A stretch of DNA of 40,563 nt from a virus. Made by a program: the position numbers and the translations under genes. Positions 8,347-40,060 of this stretch are shown here, piece after piece; the stretch's first letter is position 1, and the number at the start of each line of letters is the position of its first letter. The notes beneath the pieces are model-generated. The model was not told the DNA's origin, did no database searches, and worked only from the letters and a program-made list of their open reading frames with translations. The stretch spans positions 1 to 40,563 of IMG/VR virus record IMGVR_UViG_3300025769_000280. The stretch is one strand, 5' to 3'.

Positions 8347-9438
8347 TTAGTTTGTTTCATACCCAACAGCATAGTCTTCATCTACAATGCTTGATCTGCA
8401 TTTAAGACTACATTCTACCCAGGTATTTGTGTTCATACTGGAAAAAAACTTTTCCCATAGATTGTGATTTAACACTTGTTCTATAGTTAGTCCATTTTTT
8501 ACATTCAATATGTTTCTATATTTTTGGAAAAAACTATCTTCATATTTAATAGTCTTATCTTCAAAATTCATTGTATCATACGGAAAACTAGTCCAACTGC
8601 AAGGATGTACTGTGCCTTCTGCATTTACAAACATTCCCCTATTACCAACTAAACATAGCGGAGTAAGGGTATTGGTTTTTTTAGCATTGAGATACTTTTG
8701 TAAGTTTGTGCGCATATACTGATCAATATTTTGAATACGATTAGTTAACCGCTGCACATGTCTTTCGTATCTATCTGTTTTGCTTATATATTCACTGCTT
8801 GGTTCTAGTGTATCTTTTTCTCCCCAAGCACCTGGGTACTTAAAATTGAATTTTGTACTCTTAGTCCATTGTATAGCATCGCATCCATTTTGTCTAGCTA
8901 AATCTTCAATTTTTTGTAAATTATTTTGATTAAAACTAAAATAGATAGCAGCCCAATTTACAAATGCTGTGCTTTGGTGTCCCATGATGTGCATGCCCAA
9001 CATTATACTTTCAAAGTTATTGTTAACTCTGTATAAATTATTTGATTCTTGATCATAACCATCGACACTAAAGTTTATGGTATCATATTCATTGCTAATT
9101 CTAGCAAACTCTTGCCACCAGCTTTGTGTTTTATAACTTCCATTTGTTATTGTATAAACATGACAGGTAGGCTTTATATCTTTGATATACTCAATAATTT
9201 TTAGGTAATCTTTGCAGTAAATAGGATCTCCTACGTCTCCACACATCGTAAAACGCTGCACATGCTCTGCGATAAAATCACTAGGAAACGCTGCTTTAAA
9301 TTGTTCAATACTAATTTCTTTTTGTAGCCATGGAGTATCCGGCATTTCTGTACGGGGACACCTAGGACAACGCAAACTGCATTTACTACTAGGCTCTAGA
9401 TGCCAATGGTATAGTTGCCATCCATATGTGTTTTTCAT
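8347..9438 (-). CDS. Radical SAM protein with SPASM/twitch-like C-terminal domain
   Basis: A 363-aa radical SAM enzyme. C20-SLR-C24-PR-C27 is the CxxxCxxC motif that binds the [4Fe-4S] cluster cleaving S-adenosylmethionine. CGDVGDPIYC (66-75) and FSVDGYDQ (123-130) fit the SAM-binding TIM barrel. The C-terminal part has C262-LVGNRGMFVNAEGTVHP-C280 and C343-SLK-C347, the pattern of a SPASM or twitch domain holding an extra Fe-S cluster. Many such enzymes modify peptides or carbohydrates; the substrate here is unknown. Its ATG overlaps the SDR stop by 4 bases (9435-9438), implying coupled translation; AGGAT lies upstream. No RiPP-like precursor is obvious apart from the adjacent 57-aa basic protein. 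Confidence 0.88.
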   Translation of the reverse strand: MKNTYGWQLYHWHLEPSSKCSLRCPRCPRTEMPDTPWLQKEISIEQFKAAFPSDFIAEHVQRFTMCGDVGDPIYCKDYLKIIEYIKDIKPTCHVYTITNGSYKTQSWWQEFARISNEYDTINFSVDGYDQESNNLYRVNNNFESIMLGMHIMGHQSTAFVNWAAIYFSFNQNNLQKIEDLARQNGCDAIQWTKSTKFNFKYPGAWGEKDTLEPSSEYISKTDRYERHVQRLTNRIQNIDQYMRTNLQKYLNAKKTNTLTPLCLVGNRGMFVNAEGTVHPCSWTSFPYDTMNFEDKTIKYEDSFFQKYRNILNVKNGLTIEQVLNHNLWEKFFSSMNTNTWVECSLKCRSSIVDEDYAVGYETN

Positions 9439-10031
9439 GGCGTTATCCTAGTAAAAGTTTCATGACTGTTTATAAAATCGACAATTTTACTTGCAACCAA
9501 AACAGGGTCCAAACAAGGCATTGAATAAAGATCATCAACCGGCTTGTGATTTTCTTTGTACCTATTGTTATTAAATTCTGTTTTAGTAAGCCCAAGTCTT
9601 ACTTCTTTTATTACTACATCAGGGTGATCTATTTTAAGCATTTTTCCAAAGTGTTCTAGAGCAACTTTGCTCAAACTATACACAAGATCGTTGCCCCAAT
9701 ACTTGTCATTATTTGTACTTGTAATATTAACAACTATCAGGTTAGGGTTTTTTTGTAATGCCAGTTGTGTAATGCGCATTGCACTCACTAAATTGGTGTT
9801 TAAAATGCGTTGCCATTGATCAAATTTATGATTTACAAAGAGTACTTTGCCGCCGAGATCATGCCCTGCATTATTAATAATAATATCCACATGTGGAATC
9901 TGTGCATCTGTAATATTTTGAGGGTAATCTAAATCTACAGTTTTTCTTGTCAAATCTATAATACTCCAATCTGCAAATTTGTGGATATTGGCTCCAACGC
10001 CACTTGATGTCCCTGTTATTAATGCTTTCAT
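9435..10031 (-). CDS. Short-chain dehydrogenase/reductase (SDR)
   Basis: A 198-aa Rossmann-fold oxidoreductase with the classical SDR motifs in order: TGTSSGVG (6-13, NAD(P)-binding), NNAG (53-56), a Ser near 105 in NITSTNN, and Y118-SLS-K122 as the catalytic Tyr-Lys pair, followed by a VRLGLTKTEF segment. The protein is somewhat shorter than the usual 230-250 residues, so the substrate loop region is reduced. All catalytic positions remain, so activity is expected. The substrate is unknown. It overlaps gp46 by 4 bases upstream and the radical SAM gene by 4 bases downstream, so the three are made together. It may act on the same metabolite, nucleotide or sugar as the radical SAM enzyme. Confidence 0.9.
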   Translation of the reverse strand: MKALITGTSSGVGANIHKFADWSIIDLTRKTVDLDYPQNITDAQIPHVDIIINNAGHDLGGKVLFVNHKFDQWQRILNTNLVSAMRITQLALQKNPNLIVVNITSTNNDKYWGNDLVYSLSKVALEHFGKMLKIDHPDVVIKEVRLGLTKTEFNNNRYKENHKPVDDLYSMPCLDPVLVASKIVDFINSHETFTRITP

Positions 10032-22533: not shown

Positions 22534-22911
22534 ATGGCAATAGCAACATACAAAGGATTTAGTACAATAAGCAACAACTTTGGAAGTTCAAAGTTAACTG
22601 ATACTGATCTAATTAAACGAGATTTACTTAATCATTTTGCTATTCGCAAAGGTGAAAAACTAATGCGCGGCAACTTTGGTACTAGTTTGCGTGATTTAAT
22701 CATGGATCCACTAACAGAAGAAACAAAACAACTTATTATCGAAGAAGTAAACGCTGTTATTAACAACGATCCTAGGGTACGTCCAGAAGAAGTTACACTG
22801 GATGAATATGAAAATGGACTGCAAGTGCAAATAGTATTGCGCTATGTGCTTGACAATCAAGTTGAAAATCTACTAGTACGTTTTGACAGGCCCGATAACG
22901 CAGCAATATAA
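22534..22911 (+). CDS. 25: Baseplate wedge protein gp25
   Basis: A 125-aa protein of the gp25/W-lysozyme-like family, the conserved core of contractile baseplates and of type VI secretion (TssE). Characteristic parts are DLIKRDLLNHFAIRKGEKLM, RGNFGTSLRDLIMDPL and VNAVINNDPRV, including the family's EKLMRGNFG turn. T4 gp25 has 132 residues, so it is full length. It contacts gp53 and gp6 and starts sheath polymerisation. It starts one base after the spike gene stop and is followed by 53 bases carrying a possible late promoter before gp6. Confidence 0.96.
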   Translation: MAIATYKGFSTISNNFGSSKLTDTDLIKRDLLNHFAIRKGEKLMRGNFGTSLRDLIMDPLTEETKQLIIEEVNAVINNDPRVRPEEVTLDEYENGLQVQIVLRYVLDNQVENLLVRFDRPDNAAI

Positions 22912-22964: not shown

Positions 22965-25900
22965 ATGGCTGCTAGTACAAGACAATCAAACTTATTTGCT
23001 GCTGAAGATTGGAAGAAAGTCTACGAGACCTTCCGTGAAGCAGACTTTCAGAGTTACGATTATGAAACCATTCGTAAGAGTATGGTTGACTATTTGCGTA
23101 ATTATTACCCAGAAGATTTCAACGACTTTATTGAATCAAGTGAATATATTGCACTGATTGATCTGATTGCATTTCTGGGGCAAAGCCTTAGTTTCCGTGC
23201 AGACTTGAACGCTCGTGAAAACTTCCTAGAAACAGCAGAACGCAGAGACAGCATCTTACGCTTGGCTCGCATGCTTAACTATTATCCAAAGCGTCAGCAG
23301 ATTGCCAGAGGCTTGCTTAAAGTTGCCAGTGTAGAAACAACAGAAGCAATTAGTGATGCAAATGGAAACAGCCTACGTGACACAGAAATTGTCTGGGGCG
23401 ATCCAACTAACAGTGACTTCCTGGAGCAATTTACTACTGTGCTTAATGCAAGTATGGTAAACACACAACAGTTTGGGAATCCAGGTTTAAAAACAACAGT
23501 TGGTGGTATTAATATTGAAGAATATCAGCTAAAACTAAATCCTGGCACTGTTCCGATCTATGATTTTAAAACCACAGTTGGCACACAAAATCTAGACTTT
23601 GAACTAGTCAAAGGCACTTACAGTGGCACAGACTATTTGTATGAAGTAGCACCACAACCTAGTAGTACAACAAACATTCTTTATCGCAATGATAACAGAG
23701 GCTTTGCTAGTGCTAACAACGGATTTTTCTTCTACTTCAAGCAAGGTAACTTGCAGAGTGCAGACTTTAGCATTGGCGAAAAACTACCTAACCGCACAGT
23801 GGAACTGGATGTCAACAATGTCGACAACAATGATGTTTGGTTGTATCAGTTAGATGATACCGGCAGAGAAACTACACGCTGGGATAAGGTGCCTGCTATT
23901 AGTGGCAACAACGTTATCTATAACAGTTTAAGTGCTAACAACAAAAACTTGTTTACAGTGCGCAGTCGTGCAAACGATCAGATCAGTTTAGTATTCGGTG
24001 ATGACGTTTTTTCAAACATTCCAACAGGCAACTTCCGTGTTTATTTCCGCACAGGCGCAGGTACTACATACAAGATTAGTCCAGATGAGATGCAGAACTT
24101 ACAACTTGTTATTCCGTATGTAAGTCACAGCAATCAGATTGAAAATCTAACTGTAGGATTAAGTTTACAAAGCACAGTAGCAAATGCTAGTGCTAGAGAG
24201 AACTTGCGTGACGTCAAACTAAAAGCACAGCAACAGTATTATACACAGGATCGTATGATCACAGGTGAGGATTATCAGATCCTTCCTTATACAAAGTTTA
24301 GTAATGTTATCAAGTCAAAAGCAATTAACAGAACTGCTAGTGGTATTAGCCGTTACTTGGATGTGCGCGATACAACAGGCAAGTATAGTAGCACAAACAT
24401 TGTTGCTGAGGATGGTATTATATATCGCACAGAAGATTTGCAACAATTCCAGTTTACTTTTATTACCGACAGTGACATTAGCAATACTATTAGTCAGCAG
24501 GTAGAAAAGAATATTCTTAAGAATGAAAGTTTACACTTTTATTTGAAAAACTATGGCGGTATTAGTGTTACAGGTTTAAATGCTAGTTGGAATTTAGCAA
24601 CGACTACCAGTGGATCAGTAACAGGTTACTTTAAAAATGATGTAAACAGTCCTCTTAAAATTGGTAGTTTTGCAACTAGTAATTTAAAATATGCCAAAGT
24701 TGGATCATTACTAAAGTTTACTGCACCTAGTGGCAAAGTATTTGATATTAATAATAACTTAATTGATGGTGTTAGTGGTACAATTAATACTCGTGATTAT
24801 ATTTGGGCAAGTATTAGTGCAGTAGTAACAGATGGAACTAACCAAGGTGTTGGTAATTTAGAAACAGGTGTAGGCCCAGTGACGCTTACTGAAGTAATTC
24901 CGCAAGATGCAGTTTTAGATCAAGTTATTGCTCCTTGGAATACCACTATTTCAAGCACAGTAAGAAACAGTATTATTCAAGCAATCGGTGATTTTAAAAC
25001 TTTTGGTTTGCGCTATGACAGAGATACACAAGCCTGGGCTATTATTGATGCACTAGATTTAAATCAAGCAACTACATTTAGTTTAGCATATGCTGGTAAT
25101 ACTAGTAATACAAACTTGGACAACAGTTGGTTCTTTAAGTTTACAAATGATGGTTCAACTTATACTGCGAACTTCCGCAGCACAAGTTATGTATTTGAAA
25201 GTAAACTAGAGACACGTTTTTACTTTGACAATGATTTAAAAATCTTTGATCCGCGCACTGGCAAAACTATTAAAGATAAGATTAACATTTTAAAAGTTAA
25301 TGCACTACCTGACAGTGTAAGCAGTTTAGCAGTTGACTATGCAATGCAGATTGATGATGTTATCACAGAAACAGATGGTTATACACTAACAAACAGAATT
25401 AAAGTTACATTCCCTGATATTGACAGTGACGGCGTTGTTGATAATCCAGAAGTGTTTGATATTGTTGTTGCACCCGATACAAATGCAGTAACCAAAGTTG
25501 TGTTTTATCAGACTAGCACAAGCACAGGCGGCTACCTAACATATACTCCTGTTGCAACTACCAGTATTGAACAACGCTATACTACACAAGCAGCAATCAA
25601 TGAGGTTATTGCACAGTTTGCAAGTGGACAAGTATTCTATGCAATCACAGATGATAAGTTTTTCATTCTAAGTGTAGATGGTGCTAATGTAAAAAGCATA
25701 GCACAAACCACTGATTATGTCAAGCGTACCGGACGCAGTGATTTACTATTCCAGTATACACACAACAGTCCAAACAACAGACGTATTGATCCAAGTCCAA
25801 GTAACATTGTAGACTTGTTCTTGCTAACAAGCCAGTATGACACAGATTATAGAAACTATGTAACAGATATCACAGGCAGCATTGCTAAACCAACCAAGCC

Positions 25901-26495
25901 AACTACAAATGATTTGCGTGATCAGTTTGGTAGTTTAGAACAATATAAAAGTGTAAGTGATACGATTATCTTTAACAGTATTAGTTACAGACCACTATTT
26001 GGCGACAAGGCAGACGAAGAATTGCAAGCAACATTTAAAGTAGTTAAAAATACAAGCACACTAGTAAGTGACAGTGAAATTAAAGAACGTGTAGTGGCAG
26101 CAATCAACAGTTATTTTGCTGTTGAAAACTGGGACTTTGGTGATAGTTTTTACTTCAGTGAAATTGCTGCTTATTTGTATAGTACGCTGAGTCCAGATGT
26201 GCTCAGTGTTGTTATTGTTCCTAAACTTGCAACCAGTAACTTTGGTAGTTTGTTCCAGATTCAAAGTCAGCGAGATGAAATATTAATTAGCGCAGCAACA
26301 GTTAATGACATTGAAGTTATTGATGTTATTACTGCAAACAGTTTGCAAGCAACAGGTAATGTTGTTAACACAACAACTACAAATCTTGCAGCAGAAAGTG
26401 CCAGTGCAAACAGTTCTAGCACCGCAGTAAATACAGCAACGAACACAGTTACAACTACAACTACAAGTAGTAGCAGCGGAGGATATAGTTACTAA
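22965..26495 (+). CDS. 6: Baseplate wedge protein gp6-like (enlarged)
   Basis: A 1176-aa protein. The N-terminal 120 residues (YDYETIRKSMVDYLRNYYPE, FIESSEYIALIDLIAFLGQSLSF, RADLNARENFLETAERRDSI, LNYYPKRQQIARG) are the typical start of gp6/gpJ wedge proteins. A C-terminal domain (about 980-1110), with SDSEIKERVVAAINSYF, YFSEIAAYLYSTLSPDV and SVVIVPKL, also matches gp6. T4 gp6 has 660 residues; the extra middle (about 430-930) holds beta-rich insertions. The last ~50 residues are a Ser/Thr/Asn-rich tail that looks disordered. gp6 forms the inner ring joining the wedges and triggers sheath contraction. Its stop shares one base with the next start (TAATG). Confidence 0.94.
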   Translation: MAASTRQSNLFAAEDWKKVYETFREADFQSYDYETIRKSMVDYLRNYYPEDFNDFIESSEYIALIDLIAFLGQSLSFRADLNARENFLETAERRDSILRLARMLNYYPKRQQIARGLLKVASVETTEAISDANGNSLRDTEIVWGDPTNSDFLEQFTTVLNASMVNTQQFGNPGLKTTVGGINIEEYQLKLNPGTVPIYDFKTTVGTQNLDFELVKGTYSGTDYLYEVAPQPSSTTNILYRNDNRGFASANNGFFFYFKQGNLQSADFSIGEKLPNRTVELDVNNVDNNDVWLYQLDDTGRETTRWDKVPAISGNNVIYNSLSANNKNLFTVRSRANDQISLVFGDDVFSNIPTGNFRVYFRTGAGTTYKISPDEMQNLQLVIPYVSHSNQIENLTVGLSLQSTVANASARENLRDVKLKAQQQYYTQDRMITGEDYQILPYTKFSNVIKSKAINRTASGISRYLDVRDTTGKYSSTNIVAEDGIIYRTEDLQQFQFTFITDSDISNTISQQVEKNILKNESLHFYLKNYGGISVTGLNASWNLATTTSGSVTGYFKNDVNSPLKIGSFATSNLKYAKVGSLLKFTAPSGKVFDINNNLIDGVSGTINTRDYIWASISAVVTDGTNQGVGNLETGVGPVTLTEVIPQDAVLDQVIAPWNTTISSTVRNSIIQAIGDFKTFGLRYDRDTQAWAIIDALDLNQATTFSLAYAGNTSNTNLDNSWFFKFTNDGSTYTANFRSTSYVFESKLETRFYFDNDLKIFDPRTGKTIKDKINILKVNALPDSVSSLAVDYAMQIDDVITETDGYTLTNRIKVTFPDIDSDGVVDNPEVFDIVVAPDTNAVTKVVFYQTSTSTGGYLTYTPVATTSIEQRYTTQAAINEVIAQFASGQVFYAITDDKFFILSVDGANVKSIAQTTDYVKRTGRSDLLFQYTHNSPNNRRIDPSPSNIVDLFLLTSQYDTDYRNYVTDITGSIAKPTKPTTNDLRDQFGSLEQYKSVSDTIIFNSISYRPLFGDKADEELQATFKVVKNTSTLVSDSEIKERVVAAINSYFAVENWDFGDSFYFSEIAAYLYSTLSPDVLSVVIVPKLATSNFGSLFQIQSQRDEILISAATVNDIEVIDVITANSLQATGNVVNTTTTNLAAESASANSSSTAVNTATNTVTTTTTSSSSGGYSY

Positions 26496-29400
26496 TGGCA
26501 CTTCGTAAAAGTCAAGTACTGTTACCTGATGTATTCCAAACGGTAAAAAATAACAAGTTCTTAAATGCTACTGTTGATCAGTTAATTAGTGAACCTAATT
26601 CTCAGCGTGTAAACAGTTTTATTGGACGTAAGTTTGCTCCTAACTTTACAGTGGGTGACAGTTATGTACAAGAAATTGACACAGACAGACAAAACTATCA
26701 GTTAGAGCCTGCAGTGGTATATCGCAGTCCTAATAAACAGATTGAAAGTTTAACCGGTTATATTGATTTTATTAATAGACTGAAATATAACAATGTTAAT
26801 GTTAATACACACAGCGACTTGTTCGATCAAGAATACTACAACTACAGTGGCTTTGTTGATTTAGATAAATTGGTTAATTATGGCGAATACTTCTGGTTGC
26901 CTGCAGGCCCTAACAGCGTACAAGTGTTCAACAGCACAGTTGATAATGAGCGAGATTTTACAATAACACGCCGCATTGTAGCAAGTGTAGATGAATATAG
27001 TATTGATGGAAGTGACAATGCTAACCCAACTATTACACTTGCAAGAGGCGGCAGTTATACATTTGCTGTGCAGCAAACAGGCGTACCTTTTTGGATCCAA
27101 ACTGAAATTGGTATTGGCGGTATTAGCAGTTATGGTTCAAACATTAGCACTCGTGAAATACTGGGCGTCACTAACAACGGTGACGACAACGGCACAATTA
27201 CATTTAACGTTCCAGAAACAGATGCGCAAAACGATAAGATTAATGCAACGCAAGCAGCAAATCCAGATTTTGCTACAACGCTGACCTACAAACAAATACA
27301 CAATGTTCCTTATAGTGCATTTATTGCAGAGCATGGCGGGATTGATGTACAAACAGAAATTGATGGCAAAAGTCTAGTATTTGTCAATTTAACAACAGAT
27401 TCAACAGCATGGGATGCAGGCCAGCCATATGATGGTTACGGATTTGACGATCCCGACAATCCATGGGATGAGACAACTACACTTCCTATTGAGACACGCT
27501 ATGATGTATATGACATTGCAGTTAACAATATTGGCGGCGTGGATACAATTCAACTTACTCGCAGTGCAGACTGGCCTGCAGAACAAAAAGTAAAAATTAA
27601 GCAAGGCGATGCATACGGTAACAGAGAGTTTTACAAAGATGCAAGTGGTTATCCTGAACTTATACAGCCATACACTGCTGGACTAGACACACTTTACTAC
27701 CAGGACGGTGTTAATGCAAATCAGTTTGGTAAAATTCAACTGGTTGATGTTGACGTAGTTCCAGCAATTGACGTTGAAAATGATATACTAGGCAAACAAA
27801 CTTTTACCAGTGCTAACGGTGTTAAGTTTACTAATGGACTTAAAGTAGAATTTAACAGCGACATTACACCAAGCACTTATGCAGGCAGAGAATATTTTGT
27901 TGAAGGTGTAGGGCAACCTCAGGGTATTACACTTACTCCTGTAGATGAAATGCTTACTCCGGAAACTTATACTAACAGTACCAGTGACGGATTTGATACT
28001 GTAGCATATGATGCAGGCGGCTGGGATGGCACATTGAATGCTCCAATAGATCAAGATTACATTGTTATCAATCGCAGTAGTCCAGACAAAAATGCTTGGA
28101 GTCGAGGCAACCGTTGGTTCCACAGAGAAGTTATCGAAGCAACTGCAACCTATAACAGCTTCACTGCAGATATTGATGATGCTGCAAGAGCAAAGCGTCC
28201 TATCGTTGAATTCCACAGTGGATTAGAACTGTTTAACATGGGCACAAGCAGTGTTACACCAGTAACAGTTGTTGACACAACTCAAACAGATGCACTAAGC
28301 AATGTTAATGGCACACTGGGATACTTTGCTGATGGTATTGAATTGCAGCAAGATAACACAATTATCTTTAGTGCAGACACAGATGCAGATGTTAGAAACA
28401 AGATTTATCGTGTAGACTTAATTGACCAAGACAGCGATGCAAATACAGATGAGATTATTAACCTAGTTGCTATAGGCACAGTTGTTGATGGTAACTGTGT
28501 ATTAAGCACACTGGGTGCAAATAACCAAGGCAAGCAATATTGGTTAAATGGCACTACTTGGACTGCAGCACAGCAAAAGACTGCGCTTAATCAAGACCCA
28601 TTGTTCGCAGTATATGATCCAGATCATGTAAGTTTTGCAGATGAAACAAAATATCCAAGTAGTAACTTTGTTGGCAGTAAGTTGTTTAGTTACAAGCGTA
28701 ACAACAATGCAAGCCCAGACACAGTTCTAAACTTTGGACTAACATACAAAAACTTTAACACACTAGGCGACATTGTTTTTGATAATAACTTTGACAGTGA
28801 CCGGTTCCAATATACAAAGAGCAGTGGTAACACCAGTGTAATTGTACGCAGCGGGCACACGCATCAGTTTGATCGCAGTGGTCTTAGAAGCCTATTAAAT
28901 GGCTGGACTAAAACTGTTGAATCTAGTACACAGTATCAGATTGTAAGTTATGATGTAAACAGCGAACTTTATAGTTTTGAAATTGGTGCAAGTGTTGACA
29001 CAACTAAAATTAGACAACCTCTGCAAGTATTTGTTAACGGCAAGTTTAAATATCCTAGTGAATATACACACCTCATCCAAAGTGACAGAGAGTATGTTGT
29101 ATTCACAACTGCTCTTGCTGTAAATGATGTTGTTACTATCAAGTTTGTTAGTAACACAAAAGCACTAAACAGTTTTTACGAAGTTCCAGACAACCTAGAG
29201 CGTAACGCAGGTAACGCAACGTTTGGCACACTAACACTGGGACAGATGCGTAATCACACTGTTGAAATTAGTCAGCAAATTAAAACATTTGCAGGTGTTG
29301 CTCCGGGCAAGAGTAATATCCGTGATGTAAACTACAGAGCATATCCAGGTAATATTCTACAGCATAGTGCAGGCATGATATTGCCTATATATACACTAAC

Positions 29401-32400
29401 TAACAAAACAGCAAATACAATTGACAGTATCAAGTATGTTAAAAATGAATATACTAAATTTAAAAACAAGTTTATTGACAACATTGATAAACTAGATTTA
29501 GATTTAACTAATCCTAGCAAGTGTGTGGATGATATTTTAACACACATGGCAGGAAAGAAAACCAGTGCGTTTCCTTTCTACTACAGTGACATGTTACCAT
29601 GGGGCACACAGAAATCACAACTAGTTTATACTATTGATGATGCTACAGAAACAGAATTTGAATTTAACACACAGTTTGATCTAACTGCTATTAGTAACCA
29701 AGGCGTACTAGTTTATCACACACCTGTTAGCACTGGTGTTGCCAACTTGCTAGTTGAAGGTAAGGATTATGCATTTGACACAGTAGAAGCAAAAGTAACA
29801 CTTACTGCAACTAATCTTGGTGTTGCAAGAATTGGATTGGCTGTTAATGATACAATTACTATTGTTGAATACACAGAAACAAACGGTAGTTTTGTTCCAC
29901 CAACTCCTACTAAGTTAGGATTGTGGTACAAGTTTATTCCTGCTATCTTTACAGATAATACCTATGCAACGCCTAAGACTGTTGTTGAAGGACATGATGG
30001 TAGTATTTGGGTTGGCTGGGGTGATATCAGAGACAACGTTTTACTAGAACTAGAAAAACGTATCTACAACAATATTAAGACACAGTACAACAAAGACCTG
30101 TTTGACTATGCAGAAGTTGTTCCTGGTTACTTCCGCAGCACACTGGATGATTTAAGTGAAGCAAATAATATTACTCGCAGTTACTATGGTGAGTGGGCAC
30201 TGCGCAACAAAGTTAAAACAGCACCTAACACAACAGTAGATCCTAACAATGGCTTTACCTGGAACTATCGCAACAGTGTTGAAAAAATAAATGGCACAAG
30301 AATCCCTGGTTACTGGCGTAGTATCTATCGTTGGTTTTATGATACAGATACACCACACACAACACCGTGGGAAATGCTAGGACTTAGTACAAAGCCAAAT
30401 TGGTGGGATCAGCGTTACGGTGTAGCACCTTATACACAAGGTAACACTGTGCTTTGGGAAGATTTGCGTGATGGTAAACTGTACAGTGATGCAACAAGTA
30501 CTGCATATACAACTGACACAAAACGCCAACGTCCAAACTTACTAAGTATTATTCCAGTTGATGCACAAGGCAACTTGAAGCCACCTAGAGACTTCCTAGT
30601 ACAAGACGCAAATCAAACAAATGTTGACGGCGACTGGGTATACAGTGATGGTAGTCCTGCAGAGACAGCATGGAGACGTAGCAGTGAATATCCTTTTGTG
30701 CTACAGATTCTCGCTGCAACAATTAAACCTGCAAAGTATGGCACACTGATGTTTGATACTAATATGTATGAAAACAATGCACAGTACGATCAAATATTGC
30801 AAAAGAATAAGAGTTACAGACCAGGAATTGCTGACTATCAGATGCATGGACAGAGTGATGGCAACAATGGTATAGTTAGAGTTGAAGGTTATAACCAATT
30901 TATCAGTGAGTATACTAGATTTGGTGGATATAGTGTTGACGATGCTATTACAAAAATCAACAACCTAGAACTAAACCTTTGCTATGGAATGGCTGGCTTT
31001 ACAGATAAGAAGTTTCTTAAAGTTGTTGCAGAGAGTGTAACACCTAGCAGCCAAAGTGAAAACATCTTTATCCCTGATGAAGATTTAAGCATCTTTACTA
31101 AAAAGAGTTTGCCACTGGAGCGTGTAGTATATAGTGGTGTGCAGATTATTCAACGCAGCGGTGGATATGAAATACAGGGCTACGACATCGAGAATCCATT
31201 CTTTAAGATTGTTCCTAGTGTTAGTGCAAATCAGCCCAAAGAGATTCGCGTAGGTGAGACTGTACTGTTTGAATATACAGACTTTGAAAACAAGATTATT
31301 AATATACCATATGGCACAGTTATTCAAAGCAAGCAGCAGGTATTTGACTTCTTGGTTGCTTACCAAAGATATCTACTGAGTCGCGGCTTTGTGTTTGATG
31401 GCACAACTGGTGTTGGTGAAAAGAATGACTTTGTAACTGCTGGCGCAGAGTTTGCTTTCTGGACAGAACAAAAGTGGAGTGAAGGCAGCGTTGTTGTACT
31501 GAGTCCATATTATGATACATTGGTCGTTAACAGAACATTTGCTACAGTGGATGATCTTACCAAAACTGGTGCGCTAAAAGATGCAAACAACGCTATACTA
31601 AATCCCAAGTATTATGATATAAGCAGAACTGACAATAGTGTTGAAATACGCATTGACACAGAAAATACAAACTTGTATGCAGCACAGTTGGATCCTGTAC
31701 AGCATGAGCATGTGCTTGTGTTTAACAACACCACCATTTTTAACGACATTATATATCAGCCTGCGCTTGGTAACAGACACAGCAGACTTAAACTAATTGG
31801 TACTAAAAGTGGCGACTGGAATGGCACACTACACGCACCTGGATTCTTTATTAATGATGATGTTATTGCTATTTGGCAACAATATGATGATTACAAAAAA
31901 GGCGACATTGTAAGTTTCAAAAACAAAACCTATGTTGCAAAATACAACATTGATGGAAGCAGTGTATTCAAGTTTGATGACTGGACACTGGCAGACAACA
32001 TTCAAACAGGACTTGTTAAAAACCTTGCTAATAAAGCAGGACAGTTTAAAAACTTCTTTGAGCTTGACAATTTGAATCTTGAAGATGGCGTTGACAAACT
32101 AGGCAAAGGTATTATCGGATTTAATGAAAAAAGTTATCTTGCAGGCCTAGGACTGGATGACGTTAGTCAAGTTAAGTTCTACCAGGGTATGCTAAAGCAA
32201 AAAGGTACTGGTGCAGCAATCAACAAACTTATTGATGCAGAACTTACTAACTTGGATCAAAGCATTGACTACTTTGAAGAGTGGGCATTCCGTGTTGGCG
32301 AGTATGGCAGTATTGACAGTAACCAAGTTATTGAAACAATTATTCCAGAACAGGAAGCAACTAACAACCCATTTGTATTGCATTTCCATGCAGATGGTGA

Positions 32401-35400
32401 ACTGCCTGGTGGCACCGACGTTGGACACTATCATGTACAAAGTAAAGATTTATACAAAACTCCTAACAACTATACAGGCAATGTATTTGCAGCAAGAGAT
32501 GCAAACAGCCTAACATTAAATGATTTAGACAGTGCAGGGTATGCAAGACTGGATGATGTTGACTTTACAGTGTTTAGCGGTGATGAACTAGAAGCACTAA
32601 GTTCACGTATTAGCGAACTTGGCAAAGGCAAAAAGATTTGGGTTGCTACAGATAACACAAACACCTGGGGCATGCGCCGTATCGACGAAACACTGAGCAC
32701 AATTATCAGTGTTGAGAGCGCAACCAATGGTTACTTGATTTACACAACAGATGTTAATCACGGACTTGTAGAAGATGACTATGTAATTGTTCGTGCAGCA
32801 CAGCCAATTGGCAAAGTTGCAAAGATTGCAGGAGTTCCTAGTCCAAATAAATTTGTAGTTGTAGACGCTACTACCGAAGCAGACATACAAGATGTGCGTA
32901 TTCCTATGTACAAACTTAGCAGTGTGCGTTTTGCACAGCCAAGCGATTTAAGCACATACACACCTGTAAGTGGCTGGGACAACAAAGAGCTTGTGTGGAT
33001 TGACGCAGACAATGATGGCGATTGGAAAGTATTACAAAATGCTCGTCCGTGGACAACAACTGGTGTTAAAGAAGCAAGCCCGATTAATGCAGATGATTTA
33101 TATGGTAGCAGCATTGCTATTAATAGTAGTAGTACCATAGCACTTGTAGGTGCTCCTGCTAATGGTAGCGGCACAGTTGTTCCTTATGTTCGCAGCGAAG
33201 GCGGCACACTTGTTGAAGCAAACAACATTAGTAGTGCAACCATTGGCGACAGTTTGGATAGTTTTGGTGCTAGTCTAGCAGTTGCTACAGACTATGCTAT
33301 CATTGGCGCACCAGATACACAAAGCGGTGTTGGTGCAGCGTTCCTTTACTACATTGATAGCGCCGGCACATTTAATCGCAGACCTGCTATTCGTCCAAGC
33401 ACACTTAGTAGCAGTCACTTGTTTGCTACTAGTATGGCAATGAGTGGCGATGGTAGATATTTGTTTATTGGTGCACCAGGCGATAATAGATTTTATGTTT
33501 ACACACTTATTGAATTAGACACAGCAAGCGAGAGAGCATTTACTATTACAACCACTGGTGGAGCAACCTATACACTGGACTTTACACCCATTGATCTTAA
33601 TGCACTTAATGTTGTAGATGAAAATGGCAAAGTATATTTGCCAACAAAAGACTTTACACTAAGTGGTGCTGACATAACATTTACAAGCACACCTGCAAGC
33701 AGTTTGCAGATTGTTGTAAGACAGCAGGATTACTTTAAAGAGATTGGTAGTTATACAGCAGGCAGCGGTGACTTTGGACACAGTATTGATTGTGATCACT
33801 TGGGCAAGCGAGTTATTGTTGGTGCACCTAATGCAACTATCGACAGCAAAGCAAACAGCGGTGAAGCATATCTTTATGCACAGTATGCTGAAAAGTTCAT
33901 TGCAGATGGCACAACAAAAGCGTATACAACAACTAACACACTGCAAACAAAAATATATGTTGAAGTAAATGGTGTACTACAAATTGAAACAGATAACCCA
34001 GATGTCCCAACAGACAATGATGGATCAACTGACGGATATTACACACGTTCAAGTAATACTATTACTTTCAAATATACACCTACTGCTGGTGACATAATCC
34101 AGGTATACACAGGCACATTTACACAGATGCAACAGATTGATCAGTTGGATCTAGATGATGAAACAACTGGCGAAGAGCAGTTTGGTATTAGCGTTAGCAT
34201 TGATACTAAAGGTAGCATAATTGCTATTGGATCACCTGGTGAAGATGAAACAAATCCTAACACAGGCAGTGTGTTCATTCTACAGGACGCAGGCAAAAAC
34301 TATGCTAGTGTTACTAGTAAAGAAGGTAGCAGTTACAGTGTCACCTCAGGACACACACTGTTTATTGATGACCGTGAAGTAACCGTTAGTTCAACAAGCA
34401 GTGACGCAGCAGATTTAGCACAGGACATTGTTGATGCAGCTATCCCTGGCGTAACTGCAAGCAAGAACAGTAGTGATCAACTTGTTATTACAACAACTAA
34501 CACAGAACTTTACAATAAACTAAGTGTAATGCCAGGCACAGGAAATAGTTTCCAGACTGGTGCAATTGTTGATCCGTTTAAACTTACACAAAAGATCAGT
34601 CATCCACAAGCATTTGAAAATGAAAACTTTGGACAAACTGTAGCATTTGACAAGCATGTGCATGTTGGCACAAGTCAATACAGTGACACACGCAACCTTG
34701 TAATTGCAAGTGATAGAGCAAGCACACTGCTACCAACAGGTTTTGACATTGAGACAAACACTAACAGTGAAGATTATTTGAGTGCAACAACAACATTTGA
34801 TGAAAGTGGCACAACATTCACAGACAGGCGCACACAAAGTGGTGCAGTATATGTGTATGAACTGTTAAACTCAAATACACCAACACTTGCTAATCCAAGT
34901 AAGATGGTGTTTGGACAGCAACTCAAGAGCACAAACATACTTGAACTGGATCAGTTTGGTAGTGCAGTTGCATACAGTGACAACAGAATATATGTTGGTG
35001 CTCCTAATGATGTCACAAGTACAACTCCTGATATCAATTGGACTAACATTGCTACTGATATACTTGCTATTGCAGTTGGATTAACTAGGAATCTTAGTCC
35101 GGTTGCTAATGCCGTAAGCAATGGATTTGCTAACGCAGACTTTGACGAAGATGGCAGTATTGGTGCAGATGATGCACTTGATGCAACTAAATTTGGAGCT
35201 GGCGTTTTAGCAGCAGGTACTGAACTAAATCGTATTAACAATTATTTTATACCGGCACTAAAAGCTGCATACCTTTTAAATCCCTCCACTTACAGTCAAT
35301 ACTTTGATGCTATTGAGTATAACGGCAGTGTATATGAGTTTAACAACAATGCAAGAGCGGGTAGTTGGAACGTATTGCGCAGTGAAGGCACAAGAGTTGA

Positions 35401-38400
35401 CGTAAGTCAAATAAATCGTGTTGCACTTTACAATAAAAAGCAAGGCGAAGTTAGTGTATTCCTTGATTATATTGATCCAGCAAAAGGTAAGATTGCAGGT
35501 GTGGCTCAAGCAGAACTTAGTTATGTAAGTCATAGTGATCCAGCAATGTACGACAATCTTTGGAACTACAAATACAAAAATAGACTATGGTGGGACACAA
35601 GCACTGTGCATTACCTAAATGCAGAGCAGGGCAATATTGATTTCCGTACAAACTATTGGGCGCAAGCATTTCCTGGTTCAAGCATTGACATTTATGAGTG
35701 GATTGAAAGTTCAGCACCGCCAAGTCAGTACACAGGTGAAGGCACAGTAAAAGATATTACACAATTTAACGTAGCAAATGTATATGACAGCAGAACAGAT
35801 AGCACACAGCCTCGTTATTACTTCTGGGTAAAAGATATCACAAGTGTTCCTTCAGAAGCAGAATTTAGAACTATTAGTGCAGACAGCGTAAGAAGTCTTA
35901 TACAAGACCCTAAAGCAGCAGGCTTGCCACATATTGCATTCTTGGACACAGACACAGTTGCACTGTATAACTGTAAACAGTATTTTGCAGACAGAGACAC
36001 AGTATTAAGCATTAACTATGATGTAGTTAAGAACGAAGGCATACTGCACAGTGAATTTGAACTGTATGGCAGAGGCAACACAGACCAAGCAATTCCAACA
36101 AGAATGTATACAAAACTTGTTGACAGTTTAGCAGGTAGCGACAGTGTTGGCAACTTGGTTCCAGATCCGTTCTTGAGTGAAGTTGAAAAGTACGGAGTGC
36201 TCACACAACCACGTCAAGGTATGTTTGTTAACCGTGCTGCGGCACTTAAGGTTCTAACACAGTACGCTAACAGTGTTCTTGTAAAAGCACCGTTTGCTAG
36301 AAACAGTAGTCTAACAAAACTATTAAGCAGTGAGAATATTCCAACAGTTAACAGTGGCGAGTATAACACCAGTGTCGACTCAGTACAAGAGAGAGACTTT
36401 TTGAACACTGCTATTCTAAGCACAGGCTACAAAGTACTTGTGCTTGAAGATGAAAATCGCAGTAATTACTGGACTATATACACACTACAAGCAGACAAGA
36501 CTTGGCAGCTAACAAACATTCAGGCTTACAATACCTCAGATTACTGGGACTATGCAACTTATTATGCAACAGGCTATGATGCTACGACTGTTCCAAAGTA
36601 TCAGGTAACACTGGAAGCAGACCTGCTAACACTCACTGATGCAGTAACAGGCGACATTGCTAAAGTAACCAGCAATGATGAAGGCAACTTTAGTATGTTT
36701 GCTAAGACTGACACAGGCTGGGATGAAGTTATCATCGAGCGTGGCACACTGCAGTTTAATGCAAGTTTGTATAGTTTTGCTACTACCAACAGTAACTTTG
36801 AAGCAACAGGTTTTGACAATGACGGCTTTGACTTTGCTGCATTTGATAAAGTGCCTGCACAAGAGATTAGACAGATTGTAGATGCTCTCAAGACAGATGT
36901 ATTCATTGGTGACTATGAAATAAACATGAACGAACTGTTTTTCCGTTTAATGGAGTATGCACTTAATGAAAATAACTTCAGTCAAGACTGGTTGTTTAAG
37001 ACATCGTTTATCACAGTTGCACACAAGATTCGCAGTTTAGATCAGTACAATACGTTTAAGTTTGACAACACAAACTTTATTGAAGACTTTATTAACGAGG
37101 TAAAGCCTTATAAAACTAAGATCCGTGAGTATGTCAGCAAGTATGACAAGATAGATACCTTTGCCGGCGATACGACTGACTTTGATGTACATGCATACTA
37201 TGACGAAGGACTAAGATACTTCCGCAAGCCAAGCGGCGAACGCAGCGGTGATGAAATACTATGGGCACAAGGACTAAACAAGCCTTGGAGTGAAAACTAT
37301 GGTTATAGACTGGACAGTATCCAAATTGTAAATGCTGGCACAGGTTATATCACAGACCCAACAGTAGCTATTAGCGCACCGCAACTAGCAGGCGGAGTAC
37401 AAGCAGTTGCAGTTGCTAAGACAAATGGTAGTGCTATCATTAGCATTACAATGACAAACAAAGGCAGTGGATATACTCAAGAGCCAACTATTACAATTAC
37501 TGGCAGTGGCACAGGTATACTAGTAAGTCCAAGACTTGTAAACAATACTGTAAGAAGTTTTGATACAACTATTAAGTTTGACCGTATTACATACACAAGT
37601 AGCGTTAAAGATTGGACAGCAAGCACTGCTTATACAGCAGGCGATGTAATTGCTTACCAAAATACTGTAACTGGTACACAGGAAGTATATGATTGTGTTG
37701 TATCATTTACAAGTGGTGCAACATTCAGTGTAGAAAACGCTAGTGGCACTACTGTACTAACTGTTAAAGCTGATGCAGATTTTACAAATACTGCAGACAG
37801 AATTGCTGCTTACTATTATCCAACTAGTGGAATGATTGGCGATGATCTAGAGCTACTACAACGAGGCACAGGGTATATGGGCACTAAAGTTGATGGTCCT
37901 AACTTTGATCAAGATCCAGGCTTTGATAGTGGCAACTTTGATGTTGTTGCGTTTGATAACTTTGAGATTGACAGTGATGGTCTGGCAGTTCTTGCAGGAC
38001 TTGATACTGTCTTTAGAGGTATTGACTTTGGTAATCAAAGCTACCAAGGTGATGAATTTATTGAGCCTGGATATGTAGAATCAGGATATTTTGCAGAATT
38101 TGATCTAGGCATTGACCCCGTTAGTATTCAAATTGATGGAGCAGGATTTGTTGACACTTATAATAGTCATGCTCCGGAAGAGTTAATTCCTGGCAGAGTG
38201 TATGACACACTTGACATGGAAGTTTATACTCATGCAAGCAATGATTATGAAGGTGACGGTAATGCAATGGAAATCCGCTACACCAGCTTCACTGATACAA
38301 CTGGTCTAGTAACCGACTTCCAATACGGAGATCCGACAAAAAGCAAAGATGATTTTGAAACACTGATCGTATATAAAAATGCTGATCGCCAGTATAGTTT

Positions 38401-40060
38401 CACTACTAACTTTGCAACTAAAACTATTACATTACCAAGCACACTTGCTGCAACAGACATACTTCATGTTTATGCATATGGACAAACTGGTGAAAAGATG
38501 GTAGGCGAGTTCACTTTTGATGGTGACGGCACAACAGAGATATTCATCCTAGCCAATGATCCAGAAACAGTTGGTCAAACACTTTGCTTTGTAGACGGAG
38601 TGGAATTTTTCCCAACGTTTGGAAGCCAAGACAACAGAAGTACTATGACATTTACTAGTGCACCAGCAGATGGTGCGCACATTCATGTGTTTACGTTTAA
38701 TCAAGCAACATCTAGACTTGCTCCGACCAAGTACAAACTGCAAACAACTACAATGACTGCAGGCACTTACACATATGTACTTGACAATACTGTACAATAT
38801 GCACAGCCGTTCAGTGCAAACACAATTGTTGAAATTGATGGTGTTAGGTTGCGTCCTGTAAACAGTAAATATCACGCAGGCGATGGCTCAACTGTACAGT
38901 TTAATATTGCAACAACAGCAGGCGAAACAGTGATTGTTAACCCAGGTGACATTGGTGTTGCAGTTATACAAAAAAGCGACAACCTAACATTAAATGCTGT
39001 TCGTAACGTAGATTATACTGCAACTGCGGGTGATGCATTTATTACTATGCTAACTGCACCTGCAGATGGCGACACAGTTATTGTATACAACAGAGCTGCA
39101 GCAGAATATAGTATTAGTGGCGATGGCACAGAGATTACTATTGATAGCGGAGTAAGTTTCACAAGTTCAAGCACAATGCGTATCAACACATTTGCTAACC
39201 ATGATCCACTGCGCATCCAAACAAAAGTACATGTTGGACAGGGCACAGGATCAACCACAGTTATTGATGAATTTGATGAAGTTGGATTTGATAGTGCTGG
39301 ATTTGATCGCAGTAGTGTTGTTGGTACAGTTGGATCATATGATCTAGATAGAACAGTTACTAACGTAAACAACTTCTGGGTAACAGTTGATGGCGTTAGA
39401 CTACACCCAGGTGATTACATTACTAATGGTACTAAAATAGAAATGAGTCTTGCTACACAAGCAACTATTACTGGTACTAGTGTTGTTGTAATAACACATA
39501 TCAGTGAAAATCAAATTCAGCCAAGCATTGGATTTAGAATTTTCAAAGACTTGAACGACAACGTTGAATATTTGAGAATGTGTAAAGATGCTACTACTAG
39601 TATTACTCAGCAAGCAGCGGTTACAGATACAAAACTTTACGTTGAAGATGCCAGTGTGCTGCCGCAAGTGACAGGAGCCAGTGAATATCCAGGCGTTGTG
39701 TTTATCGGCGGCGAACGCATTACATACTGGGAAATTAACACAACAGATAATTATATCAGCAGTTTACGCAGAGGGACAGCAGGCACTGCAGTAGTACAGC
39801 GTATTACTCCAGGCTACTTGGTAGTTGACGGCGGCAAAGATCAATACTTGCCATCAGCAGATACACATACAAAAACATGGTATGATCTAGGAACAGGCAC
39901 AGCCGCAGATGGACTTGGAATACAGCAAAGTTCAACAACAAATGCTAACTTCCTAAAAGCATGCGAAGCACAAGTACCGAACTACAAAGCAGAACTTAAT
40001 AGTAAGTTGTTTATACAATCTGATTATGTAGAAGAAGATTACATTGAGGTACTAGCATAA
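26495..40060 (+). CDS. Giant 4521-aa baseplate/tail structural protein with FG-GAP propeller
   Basis: One uninterrupted ORF of 13.6 kb directly after gp6, where T4 has gene 7 (1032 aa). A gp7-like wedge role is inferred from position and coupling (TAATG; GGAGG upstream). The N-terminus (VLLPDVFQTVKNNKFLNATV, FVDLDKLVNYGEYFWLPAGP) is virion-protein-like. Residues about 2203-2840 contain seven repeats ending in GAP-like loops (ALVGAP, AIIGAP, LFIGAP, VIVGAP, IAIGSP, HVGTSQ, IYVGAP), fitting an FG-GAP beta-propeller. An EF-hand loop DFDEDGSIGADD is at 2882-2893. GxGYxxxPxxxI repeats follow near 3610-3670, and Phe-Asp clusters and beta-sandwich repeats up to the end. It may combine wedge and receptor-binding roles. 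Glycan or protein binding is a guess. Confidence 0.85.
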   Translation: MALRKSQVLLPDVFQTVKNNKFLNATVDQLISEPNSQRVNSFIGRKFAPNFTVGDSYVQEIDTDRQNYQLEPAVVYRSPNKQIESLTGYIDFINRLKYNNVNVNTHSDLFDQEYYNYSGFVDLDKLVNYGEYFWLPAGPNSVQVFNSTVDNERDFTITRRIVASVDEYSIDGSDNANPTITLARGGSYTFAVQQTGVPFWIQTEIGIGGISSYGSNISTREILGVTNNGDDNGTITFNVPETDAQNDKINATQAANPDFATTLTYKQIHNVPYSAFIAEHGGIDVQTEIDGKSLVFVNLTTDSTAWDAGQPYDGYGFDDPDNPWDETTTLPIETRYDVYDIAVNNIGGVDTIQLTRSADWPAEQKVKIKQGDAYGNREFYKDASGYPELIQPYTAGLDTLYYQDGVNANQFGKIQLVDVDVVPAIDVENDILGKQTFTSANGVKFTNGLKVEFNSDITPSTYAGREYFVEGVGQPQGITLTPVDEMLTPETYTNSTSDGFDTVAYDAGGWDGTLNAPIDQDYIVINRSSPDKNAWSRGNRWFHREVIEATATYNSFTADIDDAARAKRPIVEFHSGLELFNMGTSSVTPVTVVDTTQTDALSNVNGTLGYFADGIELQQDNTIIFSADTDADVRNKIYRVDLIDQDSDANTDEIINLVAIGTVVDGNCVLSTLGANNQGKQYWLNGTTWTAAQQKTALNQDPLFAVYDPDHVSFADETKYPSSNFVGSKLFSYKRNNNASPDTVLNFGLTYKNFNTLGDIVFDNNFDSDRFQYTKSSGNTSVIVRSGHTHQFDRSGLRSLLNGWTKTVESSTQYQIVSYDVNSELYSFEIGASVDTTKIRQPLQVFVNGKFKYPSEYTHLIQSDREYVVFTTALAVNDVVTIKFVSNTKALNSFYEVPDNLERNAGNATFGTLTLGQMRNHTVEISQQIKTFAGVAPGKSNIRDVNYRAYPGNILQHSAGMILPIYTLTNKTANTIDSIKYVKNEYTKFKNKFIDNIDKLDLDLTNPSKCVDDILTHMAGKKTSAFPFYYSDMLPWGTQKSQLVYTIDDATETEFEFNTQFDLTAISNQGVLVYHTPVSTGVANLLVEGKDYAFDTVEAKVTLTATNLGVARIGLAVNDTITIVEYTETNGSFVPPTPTKLGLWYKFIPAIFTDNTYATPKTVVEGHDGSIWVGWGDIRDNVLLELEKRIYNNIKTQYNKDLFDYAEVVPGYFRSTLDDLSEANNITRSYYGEWALRNKVKTAPNTTVDPNNGFTWNYRNSVEKINGTRIPGYWRSIYRWFYDTDTPHTTPWEMLGLSTKPNWWDQRYGVAPYTQGNTVLWEDLRDGKLYSDATSTAYTTDTKRQRPNLLSIIPVDAQGNLKPPRDFLVQDANQTNVDGDWVYSDGSPAETAWRRSSEYPFVLQILAATIKPAKYGTLMFDTNMYENNAQYDQILQKNKSYRPGIADYQMHGQSDGNNGIVRVEGYNQFISEYTRFGGYSVDDAITKINNLELNLCYGMAGFTDKKFLKVVAESVTPSSQSENIFIPDEDLSIFTKKSLPLERVVYSGVQIIQRSGGYEIQGYDIENPFFKIVPSVSANQPKEIRVGETVLFEYTDFENKIINIPYGTVIQSKQQVFDFLVAYQRYLLSRGFVFDGTTGVGEKNDFVTAGAEFAFWTEQKWSEGSVVVLSPYYDTLVVNRTFATVDDLTKTGALKDANNAILNPKYYDISRTDNSVEIRIDTENTNLYAAQLDPVQHEHVLVFNNTTIFNDIIYQPALGNRHSRLKLIGTKSGDWNGTLHAPGFFINDDVIAIWQQYDDYKKGDIVSFKNKTYVAKYNIDGSSVFKFDDWTLADNIQTGLVKNLANKAGQFKNFFELDNLNLEDGVDKLGKGIIGFNEKSYLAGLGLDDVSQVKFYQGMLKQKGTGAAINKLIDAELTNLDQSIDYFEEWAFRVGEYGSIDSNQVIETIIPEQEATNNPFVLHFHADGELPGGTDVGHYHVQSKDLYKTPNNYTGNVFAARDANSLTLNDLDSAGYARLDDVDFTVFSGDELEALSSRISELGKGKKIWVATDNTNTWGMRRIDETLSTIISVESATNGYLIYTTDVNHGLVEDDYVIVRAAQPIGKVAKIAGVPSPNKFVVVDATTEADIQDVRIPMYKLSSVRFAQPSDLSTYTPVSGWDNKELVWIDADNDGDWKVLQNARPWTTTGVKEASPINADDLYGSSIAINSSSTIALVGAPANGSGTVVPYVRSEGGTLVEANNISSATIGDSLDSFGASLAVATDYAIIGAPDTQSGVGAAFLYYIDSAGTFNRRPAIRPSTLSSSHLFATSMAMSGDGRYLFIGAPGDNRFYVYTLIELDTASERAFTITTTGGATYTLDFTPIDLNALNVVDENGKVYLPTKDFTLSGADITFTSTPASSLQIVVRQQDYFKEIGSYTAGSGDFGHSIDCDHLGKRVIVGAPNATIDSKANSGEAYLYAQYAEKFIADGTTKAYTTTNTLQTKIYVEVNGVLQIETDNPDVPTDNDGSTDGYYTRSSNTITFKYTPTAGDIIQVYTGTFTQMQQIDQLDLDDETTGEEQFGISVSIDTKGSIIAIGSPGEDETNPNTGSVFILQDAGKNYASVTSKEGSSYSVTSGHTLFIDDREVTVSSTSSDAADLAQDIVDAAIPGVTASKNSSDQLVITTTNTELYNKLSVMPGTGNSFQTGAIVDPFKLTQKISHPQAFENENFGQTVAFDKHVHVGTSQYSDTRNLVIASDRASTLLPTGFDIETNTNSEDYLSATTTFDESGTTFTDRRTQSGAVYVYELLNSNTPTLANPSKMVFGQQLKSTNILELDQFGSAVAYSDNRIYVGAPNDVTSTTPDINWTNIATDILAIAVGLTRNLSPVANAVSNGFANADFDEDGSIGADDALDATKFGAGVLAAGTELNRINNYFIPALKAAYLLNPSTYSQYFDAIEYNGSVYEFNNNARAGSWNVLRSEGTRVDVSQINRVALYNKKQGEVSVFLDYIDPAKGKIAGVAQAELSYVSHSDPAMYDNLWNYKYKNRLWWDTSTVHYLNAEQGNIDFRTNYWAQAFPGSSIDIYEWIESSAPPSQYTGEGTVKDITQFNVANVYDSRTDSTQPRYYFWVKDITSVPSEAEFRTISADSVRSLIQDPKAAGLPHIAFLDTDTVALYNCKQYFADRDTVLSINYDVVKNEGILHSEFELYGRGNTDQAIPTRMYTKLVDSLAGSDSVGNLVPDPFLSEVEKYGVLTQPRQGMFVNRAAALKVLTQYANSVLVKAPFARNSSLTKLLSSENIPTVNSGEYNTSVDSVQERDFLNTAILSTGYKVLVLEDENRSNYWTIYTLQADKTWQLTNIQAYNTSDYWDYATYYATGYDATTVPKYQVTLEADLLTLTDAVTGDIAKVTSNDEGNFSMFAKTDTGWDEVIIERGTLQFNASLYSFATTNSNFEATGFDNDGFDFAAFDKVPAQEIRQIVDALKTDVFIGDYEINMNELFFRLMEYALNENNFSQDWLFKTSFITVAHKIRSLDQYNTFKFDNTNFIEDFINEVKPYKTKIREYVSKYDKIDTFAGDTTDFDVHAYYDEGLRYFRKPSGERSGDEILWAQGLNKPWSENYGYRLDSIQIVNAGTGYITDPTVAISAPQLAGGVQAVAVAKTNGSAIISITMTNKGSGYTQEPTITITGSGTGILVSPRLVNNTVRSFDTTIKFDRITYTSSVKDWTASTAYTAGDVIAYQNTVTGTQEVYDCVVSFTSGATFSVENASGTTVLTVKADADFTNTADRIAAYYYPTSGMIGDDLELLQRGTGYMGTKVDGPNFDQDPGFDSGNFDVVAFDNFEIDSDGLAVLAGLDTVFRGIDFGNQSYQGDEFIEPGYVESGYFAEFDLGIDPVSIQIDGAGFVDTYNSHAPEELIPGRVYDTLDMEVYTHASNDYEGDGNAMEIRYTSFTDTTGLVTDFQYGDPTKSKDDFETLIVYKNADRQYSFTTNFATKTITLPSTLAATDILHVYAYGQTGEKMVGEFTFDGDGTTEIFILANDPETVGQTLCFVDGVEFFPTFGSQDNRSTMTFTSAPADGAHIHVFTFNQATSRLAPTKYKLQTTTMTAGTYTYVLDNTVQYAQPFSANTIVEIDGVRLRPVNSKYHAGDGSTVQFNIATTAGETVIVNPGDIGVAVIQKSDNLTLNAVRNVDYTATAGDAFITMLTAPADGDTVIVYNRAAAEYSISGDGTEITIDSGVSFTSSSTMRINTFANHDPLRIQTKVHVGQGTGSTTVIDEFDEVGFDSAGFDRSSVVGTVGSYDLDRTVTNVNNFWVTVDGVRLHPGDYITNGTKIEMSLATQATITGTSVVVITHISENQIQPSIGFRIFKDLNDNVEYLRMCKDATTSITQQAAVTDTKLYVEDASVLPQVTGASEYPGVVFIGGERITYWEINTTDNYISSLRRGTAGTAVVQRITPGYLVVDGGKDQYLPSADTHTKTWYDLGTGTAADGLGIQQSSTTNANFLKACEAQVPNYKAELNSKLFIQSDYVEEDYIEVLA

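Follow-up and report, generated by a model that had tools for sequence, protein, structure and literature searches.

An open reading frame for a 4521-aa protein, located among the baseplate genes of a marine T4-like jumbo phage, contains repeats of the kind found in integrin alpha chains, raising the question of what structure these repeats form, how they are accommodated in a giant virion protein and what they may do there. We have addressed this question in the window, by which we mean the whole 40.6-kb IMG/VR virus fragment analysed, and in an alignment of the window with 23 relatives. An earlier note on this DNA had described seven FG-GAP units forming a closed, eukaryote-like propeller in a wedge-type protein and had suggested either host-surface binding or a calcium-dependent joint.

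Results

Genomic context of the giant protein

Homologues of the portal and head protease precede the + strand baseplate genes in the window, which encode, in order, a phrog_7145 wedge protein, a hub lysozyme, gp25-like and gp6-like proteins and the giant protein (Table 1). The giant frame stays open across the entire propeller region, and its product matches phrog_10938 with 1069.8 bits, backbone homology and location after gp6 placing it in this family. Residues 1-2096 and about 2945-3575 are homologous by blastp to giant proteins of Paride, Phosso, Atu_ph07, Munch, SCTP-2 and a Vibrio phage, and gene order around the giant gene is similar in most annotated jumbo-phage relatives. Alignment with a single T4 gp7 sequence (hhalign) paired N-terminus with N-terminus without reaching significance (P=0.49), and the gene position agrees with gp7; comparison with T4 gp8 and gp10 likewise gave no significant homology. 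The wedge-type designation is based on synteny and the PHROG labels, from which we infer that the giant protein is located in the baseplate wedge.

Additional features were observed in the window. Positions 31874-31939 (residues 1794-1815), in the conserved backbone of the giant protein, match CBM_5_12 weakly (chitin-binding type 3-like, E=0.0037), and the homologue in phage PAC2 is annotated as chitin-binding. On the - strand, a SegE-like GIY-YIG homing endonuclease gene is present at 7715-8140 (PF19835, E=1.3e-37), and a radical-SAM gene (8347-9438) overlaps a FabG-like reductase gene (9435-10031), an unusual auxiliary pair which adjoins recombination and structural genes.

Table 1. Coordinates of features in the window and of cassette copies in other contigs
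Feature	Position	Strand	Basis
gp25-like baseplate wedge protein	22534..22911	+	phrog_261 / phrog_43
gp6-like baseplate wedge protein, directly upstream of giant gene	22965..26495	+	phrog_10646 / phrog_219
Giant virion protein, 4521 aa, T4 gene-7 position, propeller host	26495..40060	+	ORF; phrog_10938 virion structural protein
W-D-x-D hairpin ELVWIDADNDGDWKVLQN just before propeller	32972..33049	+	alignment with Paride
Blade 1 (YGSSIAINSSSTIALVGAP...)	33101..33262	+	relatives' alignment, motif scan, AF2 model
Blade 2 (FGASLAVATDYAIIGAP...)	33263..33421	+	relatives' alignment, motif scan, AF2 model
Blade 3 (FATSMAMSGDGRYLFIGAP...), predicted small beta-domain in C-D hairpin	33422..33772	+	alignment, motif scan, AF2 model
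Blade-3 small domain, about residues 2346-2406	33530..33712	+	alignment, AF2 model; expanded in 316-kb contig ortholog
Blade 4 (FGHSIDCDHLGKRVIVGAP...), predicted small domain in C-D hairpin	33773..34180	+	alignment, motif scan, AF2 model
Blade-4 small domain, about residues 2463-2534	33881..34096	+	alignment, AF2 model
Blade 5 (FGISVSIDTKGSIIAIGSP...), predicted small domain in C-D hairpin	34181..34627	+	best single Pfam match, alignment, motif scan, AF2 model
Blade-5 small domain, about residues 2599-2692	34289..34570	+	Pfam scan of relatives, rate comparison
Blade 6 (FGQTVAFD...NLVIASDRA...SGAVYVYEL), degenerate GAP loop	34628..34954	+	alignment, 316-kb contig ortholog
Blade 7 (FGSAVAYSDNRIYVGAPND...GSVYEFNNNARAGSWNVLRSEG), split by window-specific insert	34955..35389	+	alignment, motif scan
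91-aa cassette, EF-hand/dockerin-like loop (DFDEDGSIGADD), in blade-7 B-C loop	35033..35305	+	alignment, copies in other phages
Cassette copies	L050:389-661; L055:606-878; L056:2486-2758; L057:2954-3226; L054:5001-5273		

Seven FG-GAP units in sequence and predicted structure

Seven FG-GAP_2 units are found at about residues 2203-2965 of the giant protein, in accordance with the number originally described. Pfam FG-GAP_2 (PF14312) matches the giant protein in five stretches with E=9e-20 and 71.1 bits and the 861-aa region by itself with E=8.9e-24 and 83.9 bits, well above the gathering score of 23 bits, and the region thus belongs to this family. The same family is matched in all 24 aligned sequences (best 1.1e-34), each of which keeps all seven units, and the propeller is also retained in a distant ortholog encoded by a 316-kb contig. 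Five strict F-G-x-S-[VIL]...G-A-P units are present in the giant protein, all inside the region, compared with an average of 0.006 and a maximum of one when the region is shuffled; units 6 and 7 are looser than this motif, yet conserved across relatives. Searched against PDB by sequence, the family profile reaches integrin alpha-IIb (E=7e-5) and alpha-4 (E=1.5e-4), a profile being needed for this as direct phmmer of the region returned chance chitinase-type matches only. Eukaryote-like, the term used in the earlier note, is an imprecise description, as FG-GAP repeats of this family also occur in bacteria (Synechococcus elongatus gave the control match), other jumbo phages and giant viruses.

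The blades follow a layout of an A-strand with [FY]-G-x-S, a B-strand ending in GAP, a C-strand with G-x-[AV]-[YF] and a D-strand, and several details of the earlier note are corrected here. Small domains assigned to the junctions of blades 3-4, 4-5 and 5-6 would instead lie inside the C-D hairpins of blades 3, 4 and 5, by our own reading of strand order in the alignment and AF2 model. HVGTSQ had been taken as the blade-6 GAP loop, the equivalent of which is NLVIASDRA, aligned with TLAVGAPDA of the 316-kb contig ortholog. The propeller does not end at 35020 but reaches about 35389, because the C and D strands of blade 7 (GSVYEF...SWNVLRSEG, 35324-35389) lie past an insert specific to the window. 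The blade-5 small domain shows a weak Flagellin_IN match in 5 of the 24 sequences and, in relatives L011-L013, the lowest amino-acid identity among the parts compared. A motif scan detected the DxDxDG calcium loop in none of the blades.

AF2 modelling of the window region, insert included, gave a pTM of 0.73 with integrin alpha chains as top Foldseek matches, while relative L027, which is 97% identical and lacks the blade-7 insert, gave a pTM of 0.82. Of the two models, that of the window is the poorer, and low pLDDT affects part of blade 6 as well as residues close to the domain ends. Over the range 35-715, the L027 model aligns with integrin alpha heads (VIA-align) at Z about 29 and 2.8-2.9 A, the integrin matches together spanning ~345-370 residues and 2.7-3.2 A. 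Seven-bladed WD40 propellers tie with integrin alpha at Z about 29 among the matches listed for this model and, therefore, the fold follows from the structure and the family from the sequence profile. Among viral models, the nearest are those of FG-GAP proteins from uncultured phages and giant viruses and of an Atu_ph07 'hemagglutinin'. The region is predicted to form a closed ring of seven four-stranded blades with the integrin-alpha-type fold, as had been proposed.

An insertion slot in the giant protein

The propeller region has a tblastn match in none of 50,697 phage records whereas both of its flanks do match, and no match of the window to known phages is detected at the DNA level. The flanks match the PA5oct/Rak2/Atu_ph07 jumbo phages, which lack the propeller and carry other sequence in the slot, with sizes of ~80 aa in Munch, 160 in the Vibrio phage, 320 in Paride, 400 in SCTP-2 and ~1500 in Atu_ph07 and Phosso. 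In Paride, the left motif NVRF...KVWID..NDWAV runs uninterrupted into the right motif RSRQNLVDS..ENAYFYDKDT (..NLVDSKLFENAYFYDKDT), while ~780 residues separate the left motif from the corresponding right motif in the window. The W-D-x-D hairpin marks the insertion point, because its Paride counterpart adjoins the downstream backbone directly. Sequence comparison thus indicates that the propeller is a ~780-residue accessory insert in one loop of the giant protein. FG-GAP_2 is present elsewhere in the Phosso and Atu_ph07 genomes and was not found in SCTP-2, Paride, Munch, the Vibrio phage, K64-1 or T4.

Two other phages provided observations of their own. Sinorhizobium phage Phosso (PV764938) contains 55 FG-GAP_2 matches at about 48.4-68.9 kb and 92.4-94.0 kb, most of them in two frames of 3182 and 3702 aa and the rest in shorter ones; this rhizobial jumbo phage is therefore a heavy user of these repeats. 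The ~400-aa slot of SCTP-2 gp140 (L018, residues about 1968-2366) appears LamG-like by eye (EYWTFDNKEDSTFIGHI...), an identity which is not claimed as no Pfam family matched.

Rate of change

Relative to L011-L013, pN/pS values are 0.38-0.41 for blades and 0.27-0.63 for small domains, compared with 0.18-0.26 for backbone segments. By this measure the propeller evolves more rapidly than the backbone when more distant relatives are compared; among the closest relatives, L005-L010, the difference is small or absent. Variability of the C-terminal 950 residues (pN/pS 0.28-0.39) is similar to that of the propeller, and the quicker change of the propeller is also compatible with relaxed constraint.

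A putative portable cassette in blade 7

In the window, an insert of about 100 residues separates VGAPND from GSVYEF in blade 7; it is missing from the other 23 aligned sequences, one of which is 97% identical. Copies of the 91-aa core of this insert (35033-35305), here called the cassette, were detected in unrelated genes of other contigs, the evidence comprising seven metagenome-assembled contigs, the window included, from several separate metagenomes as judged by identifiers. Identity is about 60-63% between the window copy and the others and 74-92% among the other aligned copies. The cassette lies in-frame and in the same sense at four sites: the FG-GAP blade, the start of a first SU10-type adaptor gene (L055, L056), the middle of a second SU10-type adaptor gene (L050, L057) and close to the C-terminal end of a lipase-containing giant protein encoded by the 316-kb contig. 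For three of the four, both filled and empty versions of the site are available, the empty adaptor sites being those of the first gene in L057 and the second in L055. Cassettes of L050 and L055, although in different adaptor genes, differ by a dS of only 0.10, compared with 0.48-1.30 for orthologous neighbouring genes, and the cassette therefore appears to move between genes. dN/dS is about 0.2-0.5 between distant copies and 0.5-1.0, from few changes, in close pairs; the former values suggest that the cassette is probably translated and has been constrained over long times.

The nearest family is dockerin I (PF00404), which two copies match with 12.8 and 13.2 bits, below the cut-off of 22.9, and with one loop instead of two calcium loops the cassette is not assigned to dockerin type I. 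An RNA element is not indicated either, with no Rfam match in L050, L053 or L054 and fold z-scores of -0.9 and -1.3, and by inspection the cassette is too short for an intein and lacks intein ends. No inverted repeats bound it, and searches of bacterial genomes, plasmids and cultured phages yielded no copy. In L055, a short frame at 543-600 (MAVSGSTDFELSLKRKK), upstream of the cassette, resembles a cut-off beginning of the same adaptor gene, and a 13-nt near-repeat (CTGATTTTGAGCT/CTGACTTTGAGCT) flanks this copy on its far side; no target rule was found. As judged from these sequences, the chances are even that this is an undescribed portable cassette, a mobile domain spreading through virion proteins of different phages.

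Discussion

Propellers are already known in other phages; placement of one as an optional insert in a giant protein encoded beside the baseplate genes appears undescribed, as does a small travelling cassette within a blade, and no paper joining FG-GAP with jumbo-phage baseplates was found in the open-access literature. Like the region described here, the integrin alpha head (alpha-IIb, alpha-4, alpha-V, alpha-5) has seven profile-detectable FG-GAP blades. However, identity is about 16%, the DxDxDG loops that characterize the later blades of alpha subunits are lacking in the phage blades, and the flanks of the phage propeller, which sits in a virion-type protein, match phage virion proteins instead of the thigh/calf domains, membrane anchor and beta-subunit partner of an alpha subunit. 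The integrin I domain is placed between blades 2 and 3, unlike the extra domains in the C-D hairpins here.

Among jumbo phages, the Atu_ph07 'hemagglutinin' (409-aa frame) shares FG-GAP_2 repeats, and structural similarity to human integrin 3VI3 is reported for AP-J-162 gp213 (PMC11242549). These 'hemagglutinins' are separate small genes, in contrast to an insert in a giant protein, and the slot of the Atu_ph07 giant protein is filled by other sequence. The propeller of phiKZ gp131C (PDB 4GBF), likewise seven-bladed and from a jumbo myophage, lies at the baseplate periphery and was proposed to be a receptor binder or enzyme (PMC4901313), but it is the C-terminal domain of another protein; 4GBF is absent among the 50 fold matches listed for the L027 model and fold kinship is not established. 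The baseplate propeller of phi11 Gp45, proposed to bind a host receptor sugar (PMC4901313), differs in having five blades, in forming a separate trimeric RBP and in being nearest to glutamine cyclotransferase rather than FG-GAP. Both proteins, together with PRD1 P2, are precedents for receptor-binding propellers in phages (PMC4901313).

A role in adhesion is favoured by the optional occurrence of the propeller, its faster change, its kinship to adhesion-type proteins and these precedents. A complete seven-bladed FG-GAP_2 propeller with three small beta-domains, inserted into a loop of the post-gp6 giant protein, would point outward from the baseplate wedge, and its face and satellite domains would form a platform for adhesion to a ligand on the host surface, as proposed for receptor-binding propellers of phages. 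Taken as a whole, from accessory insert to outward platform, this explanation, drawn from sequence and modelling, may equally be right or wrong. Our best guess is that a peripheral adhesion platform is the likeliest role, docking of virion proteins being nearly as likely. In the latter case, the propeller would hold other baseplate or fibre proteins, the small domains acting as contacts, and would not touch the host. This is consistent with a propeller which is intact in the 24 aligned sequences and the distant ortholog and is under purifying selection, and with small domains that resemble by eye the common phage DYTVSG..ITFTTAP fold, Foldseek also listing an N-terminal portion of the CBA120 tailspike TSP4; occurrence in every clade member found could fit a structural role equally. 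However, sister jumbo phages manage without the propeller, and blades and small domains outpace the backbone in more distant relatives, and we hold a purely structural docking platform only tentatively, as a real possibility that is more probably wrong than right.

A calcium-dependent joint or an integrin-like metal-dependent adhesion module, the former suggested in the earlier note, is very improbable. Among solved structures, integrin alpha is the nearest relative, and blade 1 is immediately preceded by a DADNDG turn in the window and in several relatives, but this turn degrades to DRNTSG in L011, no blade carries the DxDxDG loop, and the sole other such loop in the giant protein sits in the window-specific cassette; the calcium joint is rejected on these grounds. 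The absence of calcium loops from the blades suggests that binding by an adhesion platform is probably not integrin-like metal-dependent ligation, and none of the known ligand-binding residues could be placed on the propeller. Degradation of a surface polymer by the propeller would be in keeping with the frequent use of propellers as enzyme scaffolds and with the enzymatic role also considered for phiKZ gp131C (PMC4901313); at the family level, however, matches of the region were to FG-GAP repeats, with integrin alpha chains reached by profile, and no hydrolase family matched it, making an enzyme just as improbable as the calcium joint.

If it is indeed mobile, the travelling cassette would be a traceable case of in-frame domain movement between unrelated virion genes. 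More broadly, an internal loop of a jumbo-phage protein encoded among the baseplate genes takes up large lineage-specific domains, one of them a whole integrin-type propeller, and this slot is a testable candidate for where these jumbo phages may alter what they touch.
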